Shown: in pieces, positions 3,818 to 34,960 of the stretch
Position numbering within the stretch: position 1 is the first letter of the stretch
Layout: every line of letters begins with the position of its first letter
Origin: Geobacillus thermocatenulatus
GTDB taxonomy: Bacteria; Bacillota; Bacilli; Bacillales; Anoxybacillaceae
Assembly: GCF_002217655.1 (NCBI RefSeq)
Contig: NZ_NEWK01000001.1
Span: 1,312,001 to 1,376,000 of the forward strand
Direction of reading: 5' to 3'
DNA: 64,000 nucleotides
Translations under genes and position numbers: made by a program
The notes under the pieces: model-generated
What the model was told of the DNA's origin: nothing
Seen by the model: the letters and a program-made list of their open reading frames with translations, nothing else
Databases searched by the model: none

Positions 3818-3847
3818 AGGGTGTCCCGAGCTTGTGGGACACCCTTT
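3818..3847. terminator. Second, probably bidirectional terminator
   Basis: AGGGTGTCCC-gagcttgt-GGGACACCCT followed by TTTC, lying between the convergent yqjQ and the minus-strand yqzH-like gene. Confidence 0.7.
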
Positions 3848-3901
3848 CACAATCGCAGCACCGCTTTTCTTTCTCATTAGGGGCATTTGACACAAGTCAG
3901 G

Positions 3902-4099
3902 TCAAGAACCGGCGATGAACCGGTAGACTGCGTCATGGACAAGTTCATACATGTCCGCGTTTGGCTGCCTCTCTTTGGCGGCGGCAATGCGGGTGCAAAG
4001 CTCGCGCCAGTCGTCTTCGTCAAGCGGCATCATGTCATCATCGTAGCCGTAATGCCGCAGACAGTTGCGCACTTGTTTTTGCAGCCATTGTTCATCCAT
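3902..4099 (-). CDS. yqzH: Small conserved protein, YqzH-like
   Basis: A 65-residue acidic protein rich in Trp, Asp and Glu (DDDMMPLDEDDW, residues 20-31), ending in a helical DAVYRFIAGS. It resembles the small YqzH proteins found at the same position in Bacillus genomes; function unknown. The start follows a GGAGG-type site overlapping the preceding region (CTAACCTCC on the plus strand). It is transcribed away from the CDGSH gene in the same direction, 17 bases downstream of it, so the two probably form one transcript. Confidence 0.65.
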   Translation of the reverse strand: MDEQWLQKQVRNCLRHYGYDDDMMPLDEDDWRELCTRIAAAKERQPNADMYELVHDAVYRFIAGS

Positions 4100-4116
4100 C
4101 GACCTAACCTCCGTTG

Positions 4117-4332
4117 CTATTCAGTGGGCTCCGGTGACGGAGCGCGGACAACGGATTGGAAGCGGCCTTTGTGCGAGCCGTCGCAAAACGGTTTGTTGTT
4201 TGACAGCCCGCAGCGGCAGAGCGAAAACGTTTGTTTCGTCACAAACGGCTTTCCTTCTCCATCGAGCAGTTCCACATCGCCGGTGACGCGCAGCGAACCA
4301 TTGTCATTCACTTTGATTTGCACGTTTGCCAT
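4117..4332 (-). CDS. CDGSH iron-sulfur domain protein
   Basis: A 71-residue protein with the mitoNEET-type 2Fe-2S binding motif: C-R-C near residues 38-40 and CDGSHKGRF near 50-58, supplying three cysteines and one histidine. Members of this family carry redox-active or transferable 2Fe-2S clusters; the role in Bacillaceae is not settled. The N-terminal half (NVQIKVNDNGSLRVTGDV) matches the usual beta-rich lead-in. An AGGAGG site precedes the ATG. The neighbouring HesB-like gene is also iron-sulfur related but divergently transcribed. Confidence 0.9.
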   Translation of the reverse strand: MANVQIKVNDNGSLRVTGDVELLDGEGKPFVTKQTFSLCRCGLSNNKPFCDGSHKGRFQSVVRAPSPEPTE

Positions 4333-25802: not shown

Positions 25803-25869
25803 ACAAAGAAAAGGCGCCCGCTGCTTTTTTTTCTGTGAAAATAATGAATCCATGAGCGGTTATTTTCAT

Positions 25870-25911
25870 GCTTGGGTGGCGAGTAAAAGCTTACTCATGG
25901 ATGTTTTTTGT
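25870..25911 (+). repeat. Orphan IS605-type left end
   Basis: About 42 bases (GCTTGGGTGGCGAG..., hairpin GAGTAA-aagc-TTACTC, then CATGGATGTTTTTTGT) match the left end of the tnpB element at 32536-32577 with only a few differences, and both copies follow TTCAT. No tnpB or tnpA follows this copy; cadC begins instead. Confidence 0.75.
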
Positions 25912-25916
25912 TTTTA

Positions 25917-25958
25917 ATTCAAATAAATATTTGAATAATAAAAGAAATGGGGTATAAT
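25917..25958 (+). promoter_or_regulatory. cad promoter and CadC operator
   Basis: A perfect inverted repeat ATTCAAATA-aa-TATTTGAAT (25917-25936) is of the cadO type bound by CadC. It overlaps the -35 TTGAAT (25931-25936), spaced 16 bases from TATAAT (25953-25958). Binding would block RNA polymerase until cadmium, lead or zinc releases CadC. Confidence 0.85.
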
Positions 25959-25998
25959 ATATTCGAACGGAAATTTGAATATGAAAGGGGGATAATGA

Positions 25999-26367
25999 AT
26001 GAGTAAGAAAGATACATGTGAAATTTATTGTTATGACGAAGAAAAAGTCAATCGAATACAAGGGGAATTGCAAAAAGAAGATATATCCAGTGTTGTCCTG
26101 TTGTTTAAAGCACTGGCAGATGAAAATAGGGCAAAAATTGTCTATTCACTTTGCCAAGATGAAGAGTTATGTGTATGTGATATTGCTAATATCATCGGGG
26201 CTTCTGTTGCAACAACTTCCCATCATTTACGCACCCTTTATAAACAAGGGATTGTAAAGTATCGAAAAGAAGGAAAGCTAGCATTTTATTCGCTGGATGA
26301 TGACCATATTAAGCAGTTAATCATGATTGCGTTAGTACATGAGAAAGAGGTGAAAGTCCGTGTCTGA
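25999..26367 (+). CDS. cadC: Metal-responsive repressor CadC (ArsR/SmtB family)
   Basis: A 122-residue winged-helix repressor. The metal-sensing cysteines fall at positions 7, 11, 58 and 60 (CEIYC and ELCVCD), the same arrangement as staphylococcal CadC. The recognition helix is in [20 protein letters not shown] precedes the ATG. The gene is AT-rich compared with flanking chromosomal genes, suggesting horizontal acquisition. It overlaps cadA by eight bases. Confidence 0.94.
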
Positions 26368-28498
26368 ACAACAAGCAAAATTATCTAAATCAGAAGCGAA
26401 AACCTACCGTGTTCAAGGATTTACTTGTGCAAACTGTGCGGCAAAGTTTGAAAATAATGTAAAATCATTGCCAGGTGTTCAAGATGCTAAAGTAAACTTT
26501 GGAGCATCTAAAATTACCGTTTGGGGTACAACAACCATCGAAGAATTAGAAAAAGCAGGAGCTTTTGAAAACTTAAAGGTTCGGGAAGATAAAGAAAAAT
26601 CAGTCAAGCGTGAACCTTTTTGGAAGCAAAAAGAGAACATTAAAGTGTATATTTCCGCCGTTTTGCTTGTGATCAGTTGGTTTTTAGGGAAGCAATACGG
26701 AGAAGAGCATATCTTTGCGACAATTGGATATGCTGCAGCAATTTTAATCGGTGGATATTCGTTATTTATAAAAGGTTTCAAAAACCTAGTTCGATTGAAT
26801 TTTGATATGAATACGCTGATGACAGTGGCGATTTTAGGAGCTGCAGCGATTGGTGAATGGGGAGAAGGTGCAACGGTTGTTATTCTATTCGCCATTAGCG
26901 AAGCCTTAGAGCGTTATTCCATGGATAAAGCTCGTCAATCCATTGAATCGTTGATGGATATTGCTCCAAAAGAAGCATTAATTCGTCGCGGAAATGAAGA
27001 AATGATGGTCCCTGTTGACGATATTCAAGTCGGAGATATTATGATCGTAAAGCCTGGTCAGAAATTAGCGATGGATGGAATCGTCATCAAGGGTACATCT
27101 ACGCTAAATCAGGCTGCCATTACGGGAGAAAGTGTTCCAGTAACCAAAACAGTCGGTGATGAAGTCTTTGCAGGAACATTGAATGAAGAAGGGTTATTGG
27201 AAGTAAAAGTGACAAAACGAGTGGAAGATACAACTCTTTCGAAAATCATCCATTTAGTGGAAGAAGCTCAAGCAGAACGAGCACCTTCTCAAGCGTTTGT
27301 AGATCGTTTTGCCAAATACTATACACCAGCCATTATCATTTTTGCTCTTTTACTAGCCGTTATTCCTCCATTATTTATGGGTGCTGATTGGAGCGAATGG
27401 ATTTATCGAGGTCTAGCTGTATTAGTGGTTGGTTGTCCGTGTGCGTTGGTTATTTCCACGCCTGTTTCGATTGTAACTGCCATTGGAAATGCAGCGAAAA
27501 ACGGTGTGTTAATTAAAGGTGGTATTTATTTAGAGGAAGCAGGATCTCTAAAAGTCATCGCTTTTGATAAAACAGGAACATTAACAAAAGGTGTTCCTTC
27601 CGTCACCGATGTGGTCACTTATAATGGCGATGAAAATGAACTAATGACCATTACAGCAGCCATTGAAAAAGGCTCACAACATCCACTTGCTTCCGCCATT
27701 ATAAGAAAAGCAGAAGAAGATGGATTGAATTTTAATGATGTATCGGTTGAAGAATTCCAATCCATTACAGGTAAAGGGGTCAAAGCCAAAGTAAACAACG
27801 AAATGTATTATGTCGGAAGTCCAGGTCTTTTTGAGGAACTTCTTCCAAATGGCATCCAATCAGAAATAAAAGAACAAATTACAACCCTTCAAACACAAGG
27901 GAAAACGGTCATGGTATTAGGGACGGAAAAAGAAATTCTGGCGTTAATTGCCGTGGCAGACGAAATAAGAGAATCATCCAAAGAGGTTATTCGAAAACTT
28001 CATCAAGTCGGTATTGAAAAAACGGTAATGTTGACAGGGGATAACCAAAGAACAGCCGAAGCCATCGGAAAACAAGTCGGCGTTTCCGATATTAAAGCCG
28101 ATTTACTTCCAGAAGATAAACTGAATTTCATCAAAGAGCTTCGTGACAAGCATCAAAGCGTGGCGATGGTTGGAGATGGTGTGAACGATGCACCAGCTCT
28201 TGCAGCTTCAACCGTTGGTGTGGCAATGGGTGGTGCTGGAACCGATACAGCCCTAGAAACAGCCGATATTGCCTTAATGTCTGATGATTTAAGCAAATTG
28301 CCATATACGATTAAATTGAGCCGCAAAGCTTTAGCGATTATTAAGCAAAACATTACTTTCTCTTTAGGGATTAAGGCATTGTCATTACTGTTAATTGTGC
28401 CTGGTTGGTTAACGCTATGGTTAGCGGTATTTGCCGATATGGGAGCAACATTAATCGTAACATTAAACAGCATGCGATTGCTAAAAGTCAAAGAATAG
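26360..28498 (+). CDS. cadA: Cadmium/zinc/lead-exporting P-type ATPase CadA
   Basis: P1B-type heavy-metal efflux ATPase, 712 residues, in the cytoplasmic membrane. In order: heavy-metal-associated domain with CANC (Cys23, Cys26), membrane helices, TGES actuator loop, the CPC transport motif near residue 360, phosphorylated Asp in DKTGTLT near 402, the HP motif in SQHPLA near 440, and GDGVND. GTG start at 26360 after AAAGAGGTG. The last base of the TAG stop is also the first base of the adjoining ISL3 element, so the C terminus may be slightly altered. Confidence 0.96.
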
Positions 28499-29822
28499 GC
28501 TCTTCACCACAAGTTGTACTTGATCATTTAAGGTAGGTGTGCATAGAGGGTACAAAAAATGCGAATTTTCCTGTATGGTAAAGGTGACCAAACCAAACCA
28601 TGGAGGGAAATTCGCATGTACTCTCAGTTTATCAAAGAACTCATCGATTGACCAGATGTTTTGATTCAAAAGGTGCGAAAAGAAGGGGAACGTTGGATTT
28701 TCGAACTTTCTCTACCCGAACAATGCCCGTTATGTCCTGTCTGCTTGAAGCGCACGATCAAAATGACAGACAAAAAGAAGCAATGGATGCATGGCTATGC
28801 TCAGCGAATCGGAATTTTTTGGATCGAACTTCCTGTCGAGCGCAGACGTTGTAGCACGTGTGGCGTGACGTTCAGCACGTCGTATCCAGCCATCTCTCCT
28901 CGAAGTGTGGCGACGGATGCTTTTCAGCGATGGGTCGCGCAATCTTGCATCGGAACATCCATTCAGGCGGTGGCTCGTATGCTCAAGCTTCCTTACACGA
29001 CCGTTGAACGATGGTTTTATACCCATGCCCCTTCCTTCCTATCGAATGACGTCCAACCAAAGGCGGTTTGTGTCGATGAGTTTGCTTTTCGAAAAGGGCA
29101 CGACTATGGAGTGGCGATCATGGATGCCGAAACGGGAGAAGTGTATGCCATGGAAGCAGGAAAGAACGAGGAAGCCATTGGGCGTGCATTGGCTCATGTA
29201 TCTCGTTCCGTTCAGTATGTCGTGAGTGACTTGGCTCCAGCGATGAAAAAAGCGATTCAACGGGTTTGCCCAGAGGCGACACATGTCGTCGACTATTTCC
29301 ATGTCATTCAGCTGTTTACCGATGCTTTAGAACGTTGTCGCAAATATTTGGGCAAAGGAGGCAAGAAACACGGAAATGTTCGTTACGTTTGCCGTTTATT
29401 GAGCCAATGCCCAGAGAAATTGACGGAGGAAGAACGTCAAATCATACGAGAATGGTGTAATGAAAGCGATTACTTAAAGTCTGTTTACCAATCGCTCCAA
29501 CATGTTCGCTATGTGTTCAAAAGCAAAGATGAGCAACAGGCGAAACGACGCTTGAAGGCTTGGATTCATCGGTATTTGTTTTGTCCTTGTTCCGTTGTTC
29601 GTGCCATCGCAAAATCACTCGTCAAACGAACAGACGAAATGATATCGTGCATTTTATCCCATTATTCGAATGGGAAGATGGAGGGAACGAATAACAAGAT
29701 CAAGCTGATGAAACGTCGGGGATACGGATACCGAAATATCCAGCGTTTTGCACTGCGGGTTCGGCTGGAAACAGCTAACATACTTTCATGACAGGTGCAA
29801 GTACATCTTTTGGTGATGAACC
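28498..29822 (+). mobile_element. ISL3-family insertion sequence
   Basis: Imperfect 25-bp terminal inverted repeats (GGCTCTTCACCACAAG... at 28498-28522 and its counterpart at 29798-29822, 21 of 25 matching) enclose one transposase gene. The 8-bp flanks (AAAGAATA and TCTTTTCG) differ, so no target duplication remains. The left end abuts the cadA stop and the right end lies in an IS110 transposase fragment, implying rearrangement after insertion. Confidence 0.85.
28616..29791 (+). pseudogene. ISL3 transposase with premature stop at codon 12
   Basis: The frame opens MYSQFIKELID at 28616 after a GGAGGGAAATTCGC site, then meets TGA (28649-28651) and continues in the same frame as PDVLIQKVRKEGERW to a complete ISL3 transposase end (YGYRNIQRFALRVRLE). 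Zinc-finger cysteines (CPLCPVC, CSTCG) and the acidic catalytic core (CVDEFAFRKGHDYG, SDLAPAMKKA, GKMEGTNNKIK) are intact. Translation could restart at TTG 28661, losing 15 residues; whether that is functional is unknown. Confidence 0.8.
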
Positions 29823-29996
29823 TCTTTTCGGGAAAGCATGCAGTAAATGGTGACAAGCATTCGGTGCGCGATCGCAACGAGTGCTTTTTTCTTTCCCCGG
29901 CGAGCCGCCAATGACCAAAATTTCGCCGCCAACGGTTGATTCCTGCATCGGGATAACGCCCATGCCGCCTCGCATAACGCGGATTTAATATGAGGA
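29823..29996 (-). pseudogene. IS110-family transposase, 3' fragment
   Basis: Reads KSALCEAAWALSRCRNQ... WSLAARRGKKKALVAIAH, the serine-containing C-terminal domain of IS110 transposases. It continues, after removal of the IS4/IS701-like insertion and one copy of its 7-bp duplication, the frame of the larger fragment at 31368-32309 (joining as GNPHIKSALCE). Its own end is lost: the right inverted repeat of the ISL3 element interrupts it at 29822. Confidence 0.85.
29990..29996. repeat. 7-bp target duplication, left copy
   Basis: ATGAGGA, repeated at 31368-31374 on the other side of the IS4/IS701-like element. Confidence 0.85.
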
Positions 29997-31367
29997 CTGT
30001 AGATGAGCATTTTTCATTACAATAATTTCCATGGTTAGAGAGACAAACAGGGTCCCCCTTACGCGATACGGAGCTGTTTTTTGATCACATCAATGGGAAT
30101 ATCTTGCTTCGCGGCGTTATAAATGAACTCGACGACACTGTGGTCTTTCCGCGACCGAAGAAGCTCCAGCCCGGCGGAAAGGGTTTGTCGGGATTCGGCG
30201 ATGCTGTACACGCAGGCCAAGAGCACCACCGCCCAATACCGTTTCACCGCCCGAATGTGGCGGACCCGGTATCCATCCAGCTTCAATTGGTCTTTTGCCT
30301 GCCGGAAAAAGCACTCGATCGTCCAACGCTGAGCATAGTAACGCAAGATGTCTTCGTCCCCGAGCTCCCGATCGGTGCTCAAGACGACATGGAGATGTTC
30401 CGGCGTCAGCGGCTGATCCGCCTTCCAAGCCAGCAGCACCACCGCATCATCGAGGCCATGGATGGCCCCCTCATAGCGATACACGCAATAACGCTCCTGA
30501 CCCACCGTGACGAGGTGGGTGTCTTGGGGCTCGATATAGCGAGCAAACTGCTTGGCTTGGACGGCGACGCCATTCGGATAAAGAATCCGGTTCGTCTTGA
30601 GCATGGCGATGACATGGAATCCCTTTTTCAGACAGGCTTCGATGAGCGTTTGGGACGGATACCACGAATCCATGAGCACATACACCGGCTGAGCCCGCTT
30701 CACCTTGAGCGAGGAAAGCATCTCGATCGCCAAGTCGATTTTGCTCCTTCCCGCCGCCTTGTCATACAGACGAAACGCGAACGGAAACGCTTGCGTGAAG
30801 GTGTGCACCATCAGCCAAACGAGCGAATGCCCCCAAACCGATTGATGATCTTTGTGCGAGTAGTGCCAATCACACCCTTGAATGGCGTGTGCAGCCCGTG
30901 ACGAAGGCTTCGTTTTTTGGCAAATCGTATCATCAATCGAGACAAAAAGAGGCTGATTCTTTCGCTCGACCAGGGGCTCGATTCGGCGGAGGATCCACTC
31001 TTGAAGCTTCCCAAGCAGCCTTTCCTCATCCCAAGGGCTTTTCGTGAAAAAGTGACTGAGCGTCGTTCGATGATTCGGATGAAAGCTCCAGTGATGAATA
31101 TCGGTCAATGTTCCCGAGAATCCCTTGGTGGTCAAGGCATCGACGATATGAATGAGATGCTTGATGACCGGTTTGGAAAGCTGCAGCGTTAACCCCAAAG
31201 TGAAGAAAAACTTGTGGATTCCTTGGTGATGTGCTAATCTATTCATGAGACATGAACCTCCTTGTGTGAATGGGTTTTGAGCACATCTATTTTACCCAAG
31301 GAGTCCGGTTCATGTCTCCTTTTTTGTTTGGTTGTCAATTTATGTTAGTGAATTTGCTCATCTACAG
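29997..31367 (-). mobile_element. IS4/IS701-like insertion sequence, intact
   Basis: 1371 bp with perfect 13-bp terminal inverted repeats (CTGTAGATGAGCA at 29997-30009 and its complement at 31355-31367), flanked by a 7-bp direct repeat ATGAGGA. It carries one full-length transposase gene and interrupts an IS110 transposase gene. Intact ends and duplication suggest a recent insertion. Confidence 0.92.
30059..31246 (-). CDS. DDE transposase (IS4/IS701-like)
   Basis: A 395-residue RNase-H-fold transposase. Candidate catalytic residues are Asp in VSIDDTICQKT, Asp in VLMDSWYPS and Glu in RWTIECFFRQAKDQLKLDGYR, the usual IS4-type spacing with a Y-(2)-R-(3)-E-(6)-K-like signature. The ATG follows AAGGAGGTTC. 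The frame is uninterrupted and full length, so the protein may be active. Exact IS name not determined. Confidence 0.88.
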   Translation of the reverse strand: MNRLAHHQGIHKFFFTLGLTLQLSKPVIKHLIHIVDALTTKGFSGTLTDIHHWSFHPNHRTTLSHFFTKSPWDEERLLGKLQEWILRRIEPLVERKNQPLFVSIDDTICQKTKPSSRAAHAIQGCDWHYSHKDHQSVWGHSLVWLMVHTFTQAFPFAFRLYDKAAGRSKIDLAIEMLSSLKVKRAQPVYVLMDSWYPSQTLIEACLKKGFHVIAMLKTNRILYPNGVAVQAKQFARYIEPQDTHLVTVGQERYCVYRYEGAIHGLDDAVVLLAWKADQPLTPEHLHVVLSTDRELGDEDILRYYAQRWTIECFFRQAKDQLKLDGYRVRHIRAVKRYWAVVLLACVYSIAESRQTLSAGLELLRSRKDHSVVEFIYNAAKQDIPIDVIKKQLRIA

Positions 31368-31374
31368 ATGAGGA
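31368..31374. repeat. 7-bp target duplication, right copy
   Basis: ATGAGGA, the partner of 29990-29996. Confidence 0.85.
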
Positions 31375-32309
31375 TTACCCTTTACCGTTCGTGTACTTTT
31401 GCGTTTTCCAGCGCTTTCGTGATTTCCCGGGGCCACCCCAGCCCAAGAAGCGAGGCGCTGCGGTGTCGGGAACTGTCCCATATCCACTCCGATTTCGGCG
31501 ATGATGACGGCGGCGGTTTCCTTTTTCACTCCAGGAATCGTCATCAGAAGATCCACTTCCTGTTGATACGGTTGTAAGAGATGGTCGATACGTTGGTCCA
31601 TCTCCTGAATCAAGCTTTCCAAATACTCGATGTGCTTCCACGATTGGCGAATCATGAACAACTCATGTTCGGTTAATGTCCCAAAGAGCGATTCCTGAAT
31701 TTGTTGCTTTTTCCCTTTCATTCTTCCGTGAAGGCAAGCGTCGATATCGGCTTCTTCGATGTACCCCTGTTCCATTAAACGGGTCAAGAGTTTTCGGCCC
31801 GATACTCCGAAGATGTCGGAAATCACCGTACCCAGCTTGATATTGGAACACTCCAATACTTTATGAATTCGGTTTTTTTCCGCAATCAATTGACCCACCC
31901 ACTTTTTGCGTAAACGGGTCAAGTCCCGCAATTCTCGAATTGGCGCGGGTGGCACAAAACTCTTTTCAATCAGTCCATAACGCAATAATTTAGCGATCCA
32001 TTCCGCATCGGATACATCCGTTTTTCTCCCTGGGACATTCTTGATTCGCTGAGCGTTGGCCAAGGTAATGTCAAAGTAGTCCTCTAAAATGTTAAAGACC
32101 GGTTTCCAGTAAACCCCCGTACTCTCCATCGCTAGATGAGTGATTTCTCGATCCTCGAGCCATTTCAGGAGGCGAAACAAGTCTTTGGTAAACGTCGAAA
32201 ACGTTTCGATCTCCTTTTGAATGTGGTCTTCTTCTCCCCAAAGCGCACAAACGACAATCGTTTTGGCATGAACATCTAAACCTGCGCAACGATGATAAAG
32301 CACATCCAT
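31368..32309 (-). pseudogene. IS110-family transposase, 5' fragment (split by insertion)
   Basis: Begins MDVLYHRCAGLDVHAKTIVV at 32309 behind a GAAGGAGTCC site; the RuvC-like DEDD domain is present (first Asp in GLDVHAK, Glu in AMESTGVYWK, DVSDAEWIAKL), followed by the helical linker and IPGVKKETAAVIIAEIG. The frame runs to RTVKGNPH and then enters the inserted element. Together with 29823-29996 it gives nearly the whole protein. It is inactive as it stands. Confidence 0.88.
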
Positions 32310-32530
32310 GATCCGGACTCCTTCCATTGATGAATTCGCAAACAGTGAGTCCACTTGTTCGTTAGGCATTTTTCTGTTCGTAGTCACCTTTTCCAAATGA
32401 AAAGGGCTTACAATGGGTGGAACACCAAATGGACTCAAACAGTTTTTTGTACAGGGTCGAACCACCATTAAAAAGCACGTCTTTCCAAACTGTTTGCGTT
32501 CATCCTCCATTATGGAAGGAGAGATGGATT
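32310..32530 (-). other. IS110 5' non-coding region (possible bridge-RNA locus)
   Basis: About 220 bases without a gene upstream of the IS110 start. In IS110-group elements this position encodes the bridge RNA that pairs with donor and target DNA. No RNA boundary can be defined by eye, and the element end is not visible because IS110 elements lack inverted repeats. Confidence 0.35.
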
Positions 32531-32577
32531 TTCATGCCTGGGTGGGGAGTAAAATTTACTCATGGATGTTTTTTGTA

Positions 32578-32634
32578 TCACTAAAAAATATGATATAATA
32601 TATGATATAATATATTATATAATATATTTAGTGA
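32578..32634 (+). repeat. AT-only inverted repeat before tnpB
   Basis: TCACTAAA and TTTAGTGA arms enclose about 40 bases of almost pure A/T built from ATATGATATAAT-like units, giving several overlapping -10-like hexamers and a possible hairpin in the tnpB leader. Confidence 0.6.
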
Positions 32635-32650
32635 AAGAGAGGTGAGACAA

Positions 32651-33769
32651 ATGGACATGACGTTAACAGCCAAAATCAAAATTTACCCAACAGCGGAACA
32701 AGCAGAAGTATTGAAAGCCACCCTTTCCGCTTATCGACAAGCGTGCAACGCTGTATCTGTTGTGATTTTTGACACAAAAGTGCTTGTACAAGCCAAGTTA
32801 CACGACATGACCTATCGTCTACTTCGATCAAACTACGCTTTGCGTTCGCAAATGGCGCAATCTGTGATTAAAACGGTGATCGCTAGATACCGTTCCCTAA
32901 AAAGCAATGGTCACGAATGGACATTGGTTCGCTTTAAAAAACTTGAATATGATCTCGTTTGGAATCGAGATTATTCGCTTGTTCAAGGCGTATTTTCTGT
33001 CAATACGCTAGAAGGACGAATCAAAGTACCATTCGAACCAAAAGGCATGGAACAATATTTTGATGGCTCATGGACGTTTGGCACAGCCAAACTCGTCTAC
33101 AAGCATAACAAATTCTTTTTGCACATTCCCTTGACCAAAACGATTCCAACCGTGGATGAACACAACATCCGCCAGGTGGTCGGTGTCGATGTGGGTGTTA
33201 ACTTTCTTGCAGCAGCTTATGATTCGCAAGGGAAAACCACCTTTTTTAACGGGCGAAAAATCAAGCATATGCGTGCCAAGTACAAACGAATGCGAAAAAC
33301 CCTCCAGCAAAAAGGGACGGCTTCTGCGCGTCGGAAGTTGAAAACAATCGGACAACGAGAAAACCGTTGGATGACGGATGTGAACCATGCTGTCACGAAG
33401 GCACTCGTTCGTCAATATGGAGAACGTACCCTTTTTGTATTAGAAGATTTAACAGGCATTCGTGAAAAAACAGAACGTGTACGTATCCATGACCGATATG
33501 AAACCGTATCGTGGGCGTTCTATCAGTTCCGTCAAATGTTAGAGTATAAGGCACGTTTGCATGGGTCAAAAGTGATGGTGGTTGCTCCGCATTACACCTC
33601 TTTGACATGTCCAAAGTGTGGTCATACGGAAAAAGCCAATCGAAACAAGCGTACACACACCTTTTGTTGCCGAACATGCGGATACACCTCAAACGATGAC
33701 CGCATTGGTGCTATGAACCTTCAACGAAAAGGAATAGAGTACATCGTTGAAGGAACGACACAGGCATGA
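32651..33769 (+). CDS. tnpB: RNA-guided nuclease TnpB (IS605 family)
   Basis: A 372-residue TnpB. The split RuvC triad is complete: Asp180 in VGVDVGVNF, Glu265 in FVLEDLTGI, Asp350 in SNDDRIGAMN. A zinc ribbon uses CPKC (Cys320, Cys323) and a second pair near CRTC (340, 343). Such proteins cut DNA next to a short motif using an RNA from the element's right end. ATG 32651 follows AGAGGTGAGACAA; a GTG nine bases upstream is possible. No internal stops or gaps, so it is probably active. Confidence 0.92.
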   Translation: MDMTLTAKIKIYPTAEQAEVLKATLSAYRQACNAVSVVIFDTKVLVQAKLHDMTYRLLRSNYALRSQMAQSVIKTVIARYRSLKSNGHEWTLVRFKKLEYDLVWNRDYSLVQGVFSVNTLEGRIKVPFEPKGMEQYFDGSWTFGTAKLVYKHNKFFLHIPLTKTIPTVDEHNIRQVVGVDVGVNFLAAAYDSQGKTTFFNGRKIKHMRAKYKRMRKTLQQKGTASARRKLKTIGQRENRWMTDVNHAVTKALVRQYGERTLFVLEDLTGIREKTERVRIHDRYETVSWAFYQFRQMLEYKARLHGSKVMVVAPHYTSLTCPKCGHTEKANRNKRTHTFCCRTCGYTSNDDRIGAMNLQRKGIEYIVEGTTQA

Positions 33770-33921
33770 CCTGCGTCGTTGGGTAGTTGTCAACCTGCCC
33801 CTAATGCAACCCCAAGTCAAGGAAGGAGGACGAAGTCCGCTCGCACTTCTGGGGAGTTGCAAGCCCCCACTTCAAGCGTTAGCGAAGTGGGGGTAGTTGA
33901 CTGTTGATTTGAGGAAAATGC
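33740..33921 (+). ncRNA. Probable omega RNA of tnpB, with guide
   Basis: The 3' end of tnpB and the right end form the expected scaffold, including the terminal hairpin CCCCCACTT-caagcgttagcg-AAGTGGGGG (33874-33893). The guide would be the bases after 33901 (TGTTGATTTGAGGAAAATGC), which are the 3' end of ypuA. With TTCAT in front, that is the empty donor site. RNA ends are estimated. Confidence 0.7.
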
Positions 33922-34776
33922 TGATTTGATCGCGTTCCAAATTTCTTTGAAGATGTCGATAAGGTTTTGAATGAACGTTTTCCCTTCTTCTGACTGCAAA
34001 AACGCCGATAGCTGTTCTTTCGCCTTGCTCAGCTGATCGTTCACTTGATCCCAATTAATATGGGCGTTTTGCATTTTATGGAAAAGGGAAATCAGGTTGT
34101 TGATTTCATTCTCGCTCAGCGTAATGCCAAGGTCGTTGGCGATTTTTTCAATAAGGGCGCGCAAATCAGCGTCCGTCTGCGGTGGGTTGTTGGCGATTTC
34201 TTGTTTGATTTTCGCCAGCAGGGCGACCGCTTTGTCCGCGCCGATCGAATCGGCGAGCTTCGCCGTCTGCACCATTTCCTCGTTCGCCACTTTTTTGACA
34301 TCATCAGGGATGGCTTGGTCCGAGGAAATTTCATACGCCTTCATCAGCCCCGTCAGCGCTGCGGTGCCGGAAACCGGAAACGGGGCGGTGATGTAAATAT
34401 CGGCATCTTTCACCCCTGCGGTGATCAAGGCGTTTGTATACATCTCTTTCGTCACCCATGTGATGTTGTGCGTTTCGACATGAAGCCCCGAGCCGGGCTC
34501 TTTTATCGTGATCATCGACGACGAGATGGCGCGCGTGCCGATTTGCGCTTTCGGAATGAGTCCGTCCAAATATTTATGCTCCTCAACGTTTGAGACGGTG
34601 ATCGTTTGCGCCCCGTCCGGCGCCTTCATTTCGTCGAGCACTTTTTGCTTTTGTTCATTCGTTAAGTTTTCCCCGAGCGTCACAATGACATCGCCCGGCG
34701 CGGCATCGGCCGCTGCGATGCCCGGAGATGCCAAGAGCACCGCCCAAAGCAGCGATGAAGCGATCGTTCGTTTCAC
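33817..34776 (-). CDS. ypuA: YpuA/DUF1002 secreted protein, C terminus extended by IS insertion
   Basis: DUF1002 protein with a signal peptide (VKRTIASSLLWAVLLASPG..., residues 1-23). The body includes DVIVTLGENLTNEQKQKVLDEM and APFPVSGTAALTGLMKAYE. The GTG start at 34776 follows AGGAGGCGAGCTAT. Native sequence ends ...FSSNQQ at the IS605 junction (33901/33902); the frame then runs 27 residues through the transposon end to 33817. Restoring the TTCAT flank gives CAA CAA TGA, the likely original stop. Function unknown. Confidence 0.85.
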   Translation of the reverse strand: MKRTIASSLLWAVLLASPGIAAADAAPGDVIVTLGENLTNEQKQKVLDEMKAPDGAQTITVSNVEEHKYLDGLIPKAQIGTRAISSSMITIKEPGSGLHVETHNITWVTKEMYTNALITAGVKDADIYITAPFPVSGTAALTGLMKAYEISSDQAIPDDVKKVANEEMVQTAKLADSIGADKAVALLAKIKQEIANNPPQTDADLRALIEKIANDLGITLSENEINNLISLFHKMQNAHINWDQVNDQLSKAKEQLSAFLQSEEGKTFIQNLIDIFKEIWNAIKSAFSSNQQSTTPTSLTLEVGACNSPEVRADFVLLP

Positions 34777-34960
34777 ATAGCTCGCCTCCTGTTTACGAAA
34801 ATGCATTATCATTATACCGTACGCTCGCCTGCTTGGCTATCGGCAAAAAGCGACGCGGTCAGGCGGCGTGCGAATTTGAAAAGACATTTTTTCTTTTGTT
34901 TCACTTGGCAATCATGGTATGATAAAAGCAGTTTCGATGTCGAAAAGGAGCTGGATGCTT

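Follow-up and report, generated by a model that had tools for sequence, protein, structure and literature searches.

Displacement of the ypuA stop codon by a tnpB-only IS200/IS605 element in Geobacillus thermocatenulatus and the probable later loss of the element's left end

Introduction

The closest described system is ISDra2, whose TnpB carries a RuvC-type nuclease domain, whose ends form hairpins, and which inserts on the 3' side of a fixed short motif and duplicates no target sequence; IS605-type TnpA works on both ends of the element (PMC8612924). The tnpB element beside ypuA in Geobacillus thermocatenulatus shares these features, and, as in ISDra2, the flank past its right end would form the guide. 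It differs in its target motif, which is TTCAT rather than the TTGAT of ISDra2, and in that it has no tnpA and has lost its left end, so that it cannot be an excisable unit. A literature search returned nothing on a Geobacillus TnpB with TTCAT or on a C-terminal extension caused by IS605; related TAMs have reportedly been described in an IS605 study of G. stearothermophilus.

Two further systems bear on the locus. The IS110 family combines a DEDD transposase with RNA-guided target choice (PMC11187229). An element next to the tnpB element resembles this family in its DEDD/Transposase_20 protein, in the non-coding region upstream of the transposase gene, and in a conserved terminus beside a recurring T-tract target. 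Here it is merely a neighbour, truncated on its left, split by an IS4-like element, and the source of a misleading TTTTCAT. Gene-drive behaviour of TnpB is known for IS200/IS605 elements (PMC11870625). As in that system, the presumed guide at ypuA matches the empty alleles of sister genomes, with TTCAT as the presumed TAM. Unlike it, the present copy is chromosomal, lacks both TnpA and a left end, and would carry an 8-kb block instead of just the element, and any drive here would be hypothetical.

At ypuA an ordinary insertion of an IS605 element was succeeded by IS-mediated decay, and the region is mostly ordinary transposon debris. Judging from comparisons with related genomes, we assign a probability of about 0.88 to the reading that an IS605 insertion was followed by IS110-type recombination, which deleted the left end and left an immobile remnant.

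Results

The element, its right end and the empty site

The window, that is, the whole stretch of 64,000 nucleotides that was analysed, lies within a 1.72-Mb contig. Its features around the 3' end of ypuA are as follows.

32642-33769, plus strand: tnpB, 375 codons from GTG (or from ATG at 32651), encoding a RuvC-type nuclease and apparently intact (Pfam; PDB relatives)
33755-33901, plus strand: right end (RE) of the element, closing with GTTGAC, with hairpin CCCCCACTTC...GAAGTGGGGG (copies with a common end base; fold)
33817-33901, minus strand: 27-codon extension of ypuA (STTPTSLTLEVGACNSPEVRADFVLLP plus TGA), within the element's right end (ORF)
33902-34812, minus strand: native coding part of ypuA, ending ...SSNQQ (ORF; Pfam DUF1002, E = 3.9e-84; empty-site homologues)

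The tnpB product contains the Cas12f1-like_TNB and OrfB_IS605 domains of Pfam, the TNB/Zn-ribbon and OrfB_IS605 combination, and its relatives in the PDB include ISDra2 TnpB. Six sister copies are all full length and encode proteins 97-99% identical to it. The right end has a subterminal hairpin and an end that is common to independent copies. Elsewhere in the same genome it recurs seven times, with six of the matches ending at the base corresponding to 33901 and the remaining one a base short of it. Of the 16 right ends compared in this and three sister genomes, 15 close with GTTGAC and then diverge. The right boundary after TTGAC at 33901, proposed in the initial annotation, is therefore confirmed to the base. 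The region is presumed to be the omega-RNA scaffold; an Rfam search over the right end found no family. Empty sites, together with the left flanks of 12 other copies, place insertion 3' of TTCAT without target duplication. The element is thus a left-truncated, tnpB-only (IS1341-type) member of IS200/IS605.

A ypuA gene is present in fourteen Geobacillus genomes, the source genome counted. Sequence comparison of the ypuA loci revealed an empty site, ...GGGCGCCTTCTTTCAT followed directly by TGTTGATTTGAGG, with a ypuA TGA stop, in G009, G013 (putative G. zalihae) and G003 (putative G. proteiniphilus); the ypuA stretch of G009 is 100% identical to that of the source genome. The predicted empty site, TTCAT and then TGTTGATTTG, is matched exactly in these three sister species, where ypuA ends ...SSNQQ-TGA at the predicted base, which bears out the proposal that an IS605 insertion removed the ypuA stop. 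The empty site of G002 (G. jurassicus) has one mismatch within the 20-base test pattern, which brings to four the sister genomes with an empty site and the native stop. In farther species the same position is occupied by TTTAT, CTCAT or some other sequence. The prediction held because TTCAT is both the target of the family and the native left flank, and not because the TTCAT at 32531-32535, discussed below, is that flank. For this Geobacillus tnpB family, direct comparison with empty sites fixes both the boundary and the TTCAT target.

The ypuA stop codon and the 27-residue tail

The full ypuA frame runs on the minus strand from 34812 to 33817 and traverses the right end of the tnpB element, gaining 27 codons (STTPTSLTLEVGACNSPEVRADFVLLP) after the native ...SSNQQ, so the read-through described earlier is real as a reading frame. 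On the opposite strand TTCAT reads ATGAA, and insertion 3' of TTCAT therefore falls one base ahead of the ypuA TGA. Base 33901, which belongs to the element, completes the last native Gln codon as its third base and changes it from CAA to CAG. Among the three minus-strand frames that enter the right end, that of ypuA stays open for 27 codons, and the other two stop after 9 and 6.

The TTCAT/ATGAA relationship has a general side effect, in that it lets these elements unhook the TGA of a convergent gene one base from the end. Rough ORF calling (ORFs of at least 100 codons) in the 64-kb window and five Geobacillus loci found that 10 of 560 TTCAT sites overlap a convergent ORF's stop codon. For a genome that holds roughly a dozen such elements, one stop loss is unsurprising at this frequency, and the loss of a stop codon by such an insertion is unremarkable.

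It is extremely unlikely that the ypuA extension is an artefact of assembly or annotation. IS-rich junctions are prone to misassembly, but the RE-ypuA junction is of the clean element/flank type and has the same form as in other copies, the TTCAT target in the sister genomes obeys the rule of the family, and this junction is independent of the uncertain left side.

The left end of the element

Upstream of tnpB the element is incomplete, and two features mark its truncated edge.

32569-32574, no strand: T6 tract, junction between an IS110-family terminus and the truncated tnpB element (copy comparison)
32575-32641, plus strand: remnant of the left region (GTATCACTAAAAAATATG...), without the true left end CGTCTTTGGCGAGGAGACCCCC...GAATCGCTTTTTT (copy comparison)

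In six of six copies that retain a left end, the element begins TTCAT followed by CGTCTTTGGCGAGGAGACCCCCACTTC... (in a longer form, TTCAT followed by CGTCTTTGGCGAGGAGACCCCCACTTCAACGACCAAAGGGAGTAAGTGGGGGAGGAATCGCTTTTTTGTTTTTGTATCACT...) and forms a hairpin. These left ends come from the G013 and G009 copies and from a partial copy in G011. The left-end hairpin has the stem CCCCCACTT...AAGTGGGGG, which matches the hairpin at the right end, and each of the two folds well when taken as a single strand (z about -3.2). The true left end (CGTCTTTGGCGAGG...) gave 0 matches in the window with up to 3 mismatches allowed, and sequence of the element picks up again only at the T-tract 32569-32574, continuing with GTATCACT.

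Positions 32528-32568 instead hold ATTTTCATGCCTGGGTGGGGAGTAAAATTTACTCATGGATG, an IS110-family terminus that encloses TTCAT at 32531-32535 (TTTTCAT at 32529-32535). The genus contains 12 further mismatch-free copies of ATTTTCATGCCTGGGTGGGGAGTAAAATTTACTCATGGATG, in G003, G004, G009 and G011. At the cad loci of G011 and G003 it joins IS110-family coding sequence to the region upstream of cadC, and in G004 it adjoins the same IS110 element as in the window, in each case with no tnpB. The initial annotation had taken this TTCAT for the left flank of the element and 32535/32536 for its left boundary. Neither assignment survives: the motif lies inside an IS110-family terminus with 12 identical copies elsewhere, and the six real left ends differ from the sequence found here, the real one being missing from the window.

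An intact IS605 element spanning 32536-33901, with TTCAT at its left and a ypuA stop that TnpA excision would restore, is accordingly scarcely credible. TTTTCAT does stand ahead of 32536 and, joined to 33902, gives an in-frame TGA, and the sequence 3' of it has a weak hairpin. Against this, the terminus at 32528-32568 is found without tnpB at other loci, the six copies retaining a left end show a different one, the native sequence preceding TTTCAT (the lysA terminator) is absent at 32520, and the source genome has no intact TnpA by PF01797. In IS-dense regions, neighbouring IS110 termini can forge left ends of tnpB elements.

The 8.07-kb block between lysA and ypuA

Compared with the empty site, the extra sequence between lysA and ypuA amounts to ~8.07 kb (25832-33901) and not to the tnpB element alone. 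Sequence is shared with the sister species through lysA as far as the T-tract at 25831, and the match resumes at 33902, the block taking the place of half of the lysA/ypuA terminator found in those species. From left to right it comprises an IS110 terminal unit, cadC-cadA, an ISL3 element, an IS110 element split by an IS4-like element, the T-tract, the left-truncated tnpB element and its RE. The features to the left of the T-tract are listed below, together with the adjoining terminator half.

25811-25831, no strand: left half (AAGGCGCCC...T-tract) of the terminator that lysA and ypuA share, without its right arm GGGCGCCTT (empty-site comparison)
25832-25911, plus strand: IS110-family terminal repeat unit with a 75-bp period, at the left edge of the insert (repeat comparison)
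25999-28498, plus strand: cadC-like ArsR regulator and heavy-metal P-type ATPase, CadA-like (Pfam; relatives)
28500-29822, plus strand: ISL3-family element directly 3' of cadA (Pfam; same junction in G009)
29823-32568, minus strand: IS110-family element with a DEDD transposase, left ~170 bp missing (copy comparison; Pfam)
29997-31367, minus strand: IS4-like (DDE) element within the IS110 element (inverted arms; overlap of the two IS110 pieces)

The IS110-family element is 99.9% identical to a full 1,539-bp copy in G004 and has DEDD and Transposase_20 domains and an upstream non-coding region. It does not have both ends, its left ~170 bp being gone at the junction with ISL3. The IS4-like insertion is flanked by a 7-bp duplication, ATGAGGA, at 29990-29996 and 31368-31374, and the ISL3 element has no obvious flanking duplication. 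The 75-bp terminal unit is tandemly arrayed in G004.

Several observations accompany the block. The IS4-like element cuts the IS110 transposase frame, which in G004 is 452 codons between stops. The ~1.54-kb IS110 element and the 75-bp repeat of its terminal sequences adjoin T-tracts, often terminators, as at 25832-25911 and 32528-32574 of the window and at 2061-2335 and 3834-4209 of locus L066 (G004). The 75-bp unit is found singly or tandemly repeated, and some of the arrays enclose the IS110 element. The bidirectional lysA/ypuA terminator is one-armed (25811-25831), and with this arm lost both lysA and ypuA are probably without their native terminator.

A single large IS605-type transposon, with a left end at 25870, the right end at 33901 and cadC-cadA as cargo, could have inserted in one step at TTCAT, which implies TTCAT followed by CGTCTTTGG... 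as the left edge of the block. A repeat resembling 32528-32568 does lie at that edge, and at the opposite edge stands a genuine IS605 right end. This origin is nonetheless very unlikely, since the left-edge repeat is no IS605 left end but an IS110-family terminal unit, the 38 bp ahead of it belong to the same tandem unit and not to the lysA terminator with TTCAT, and the cadCA genes of sister genomes are located elsewhere with no IS605 ends directly upstream. The repeat at 25862 was also considered as a second IS605 left end, giving an 8-kb composite, and was rejected as an IS110-family terminus in G003, G004, G009 and G011.

Proposed history of the locus

Our preferred reading, insertion followed by IS110-type recombination, comprises two steps. 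In the first, which the empty sites demonstrate, a tnpB-only IS200/IS605 element entered the lysA-ypuA junction on the 3' side of TTCAT, parting ypuA from its TGA so that it reads 27 codons into the right end. In the second, IS110-family elements and small derivatives of their terminal repeats, both of which adjoin T-tracts, would have arrived at two such tracts, one in the lysA terminator and the other inside the left end of the element. Recombination between IS110-type repeats, and probably also between ISL3 copies, would then have brought in the cadC-cadA segment, and the stretch between the two T-tracts, comprising half of the terminator, the native TTCAT and the left end of the element, would have been deleted. 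The outcome is an immobile remnant with an intact-looking tnpB, an intact RE/omega-RNA, and a ypuA with a fixed 27-residue tail.

Many loci have an IS110-family terminus beside a T-tract, and the most economical explanation is therefore that elements inserted at such copies or that the copies recombined with one another. The end states of the second step are read directly from the comparisons, and we infer the order of its events. No Geobacillus genome was found in the intermediate state, with a tnpB element that retains its left end at the lysA-ypuA junction. The junctions are read from the assembly, in which misassembly is possible in so IS-rich a region.

Excision

The expectation that excision would restore the ypuA stop exactly holds as string arithmetic only, there being no excisable unit. 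The one Y1 transposase gene found in the source genome with PF01797, a search that could miss a divergent Y1 transposase, is interrupted by stops (G000:C1:1493851-1494202; L078); several sister genomes have intact Y1 TnpA genes by the same profile. With the left end absent and the TnpA gene broken, TnpA cannot excise the element, and exact excision from the ypuA locus is not supported. For the same reasons the ypuA stop is not awaiting restoration, and the 27-residue extension is effectively fixed unless recombination replaces the locus. The source genome carries several IS605-type elements despite the interruption of its sole Y1 gene.

The putative guide

By analogy with ISDra2, the flank 3' of the RE is the presumed TnpB guide.

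33902-33921, plus strand: putative TnpB guide, TGTTGATTTGAGGAAAATGC (ISDra2 analogy, PMC8612924; matches to sister empty sites)

Its target on the empty allele would be TTCAT plus TGTTGATTTGAGGAAA, with TTCAT as the presumed TAM. In a search of 14 genomes, the 20-base pattern TTCAT plus TGTTGATTTGAGGAA has an exact match at the empty lysA-ypuA site in each of G003, G009 and G013. No other locus in these genomes matches within two mismatches, and the one- and two-mismatch versions, among them the genome's own RE junction with TTGAC in place of TTCAT, lie only at lysA-ypuA. An active TnpB would thus be expected to cut the empty allele of relatives and to spare its own genome.

The remnant might on this basis be a homing unit, in which TnpB and the right-end RNA, though unable to excise, still recognise the sister empty allele TTCAT plus TGTTGATTTG...; we regard this as very unlikely. 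If it were true, natural DNA exchange with cutting and repair could favour replacement of the empty allele by the 8-kb block including cadC-cadA, and the block would be a transposase-independent, RNA-guided genomic island. Spread of the whole block by TnpB is speculation, consistent with plasmid TnpB drive (PMC11870625). Should the remnant TnpB still be active, the locus would lend itself to testing RNA-guided homing in the absence of transposition.

Minor observations

On the minus strand at 28552-28620, in the left part of the ISL3 element, lies a sub-threshold Rfam match to Ref64, an Enterococcus sRNA; the Ref64 family may be an IS-derived hairpin. The source genome also carries six short (~0.4 kb) non-autonomous elements (L068-L073) without tnpB, whose right end is 86-96% like that of the tnpB element. 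Their left ends read TTCAT followed by CCTATTTCGCGCAGGAG, with the TTCAT flank in all six, and they are possible RNA-only partners of the TnpB encoded at 32642.
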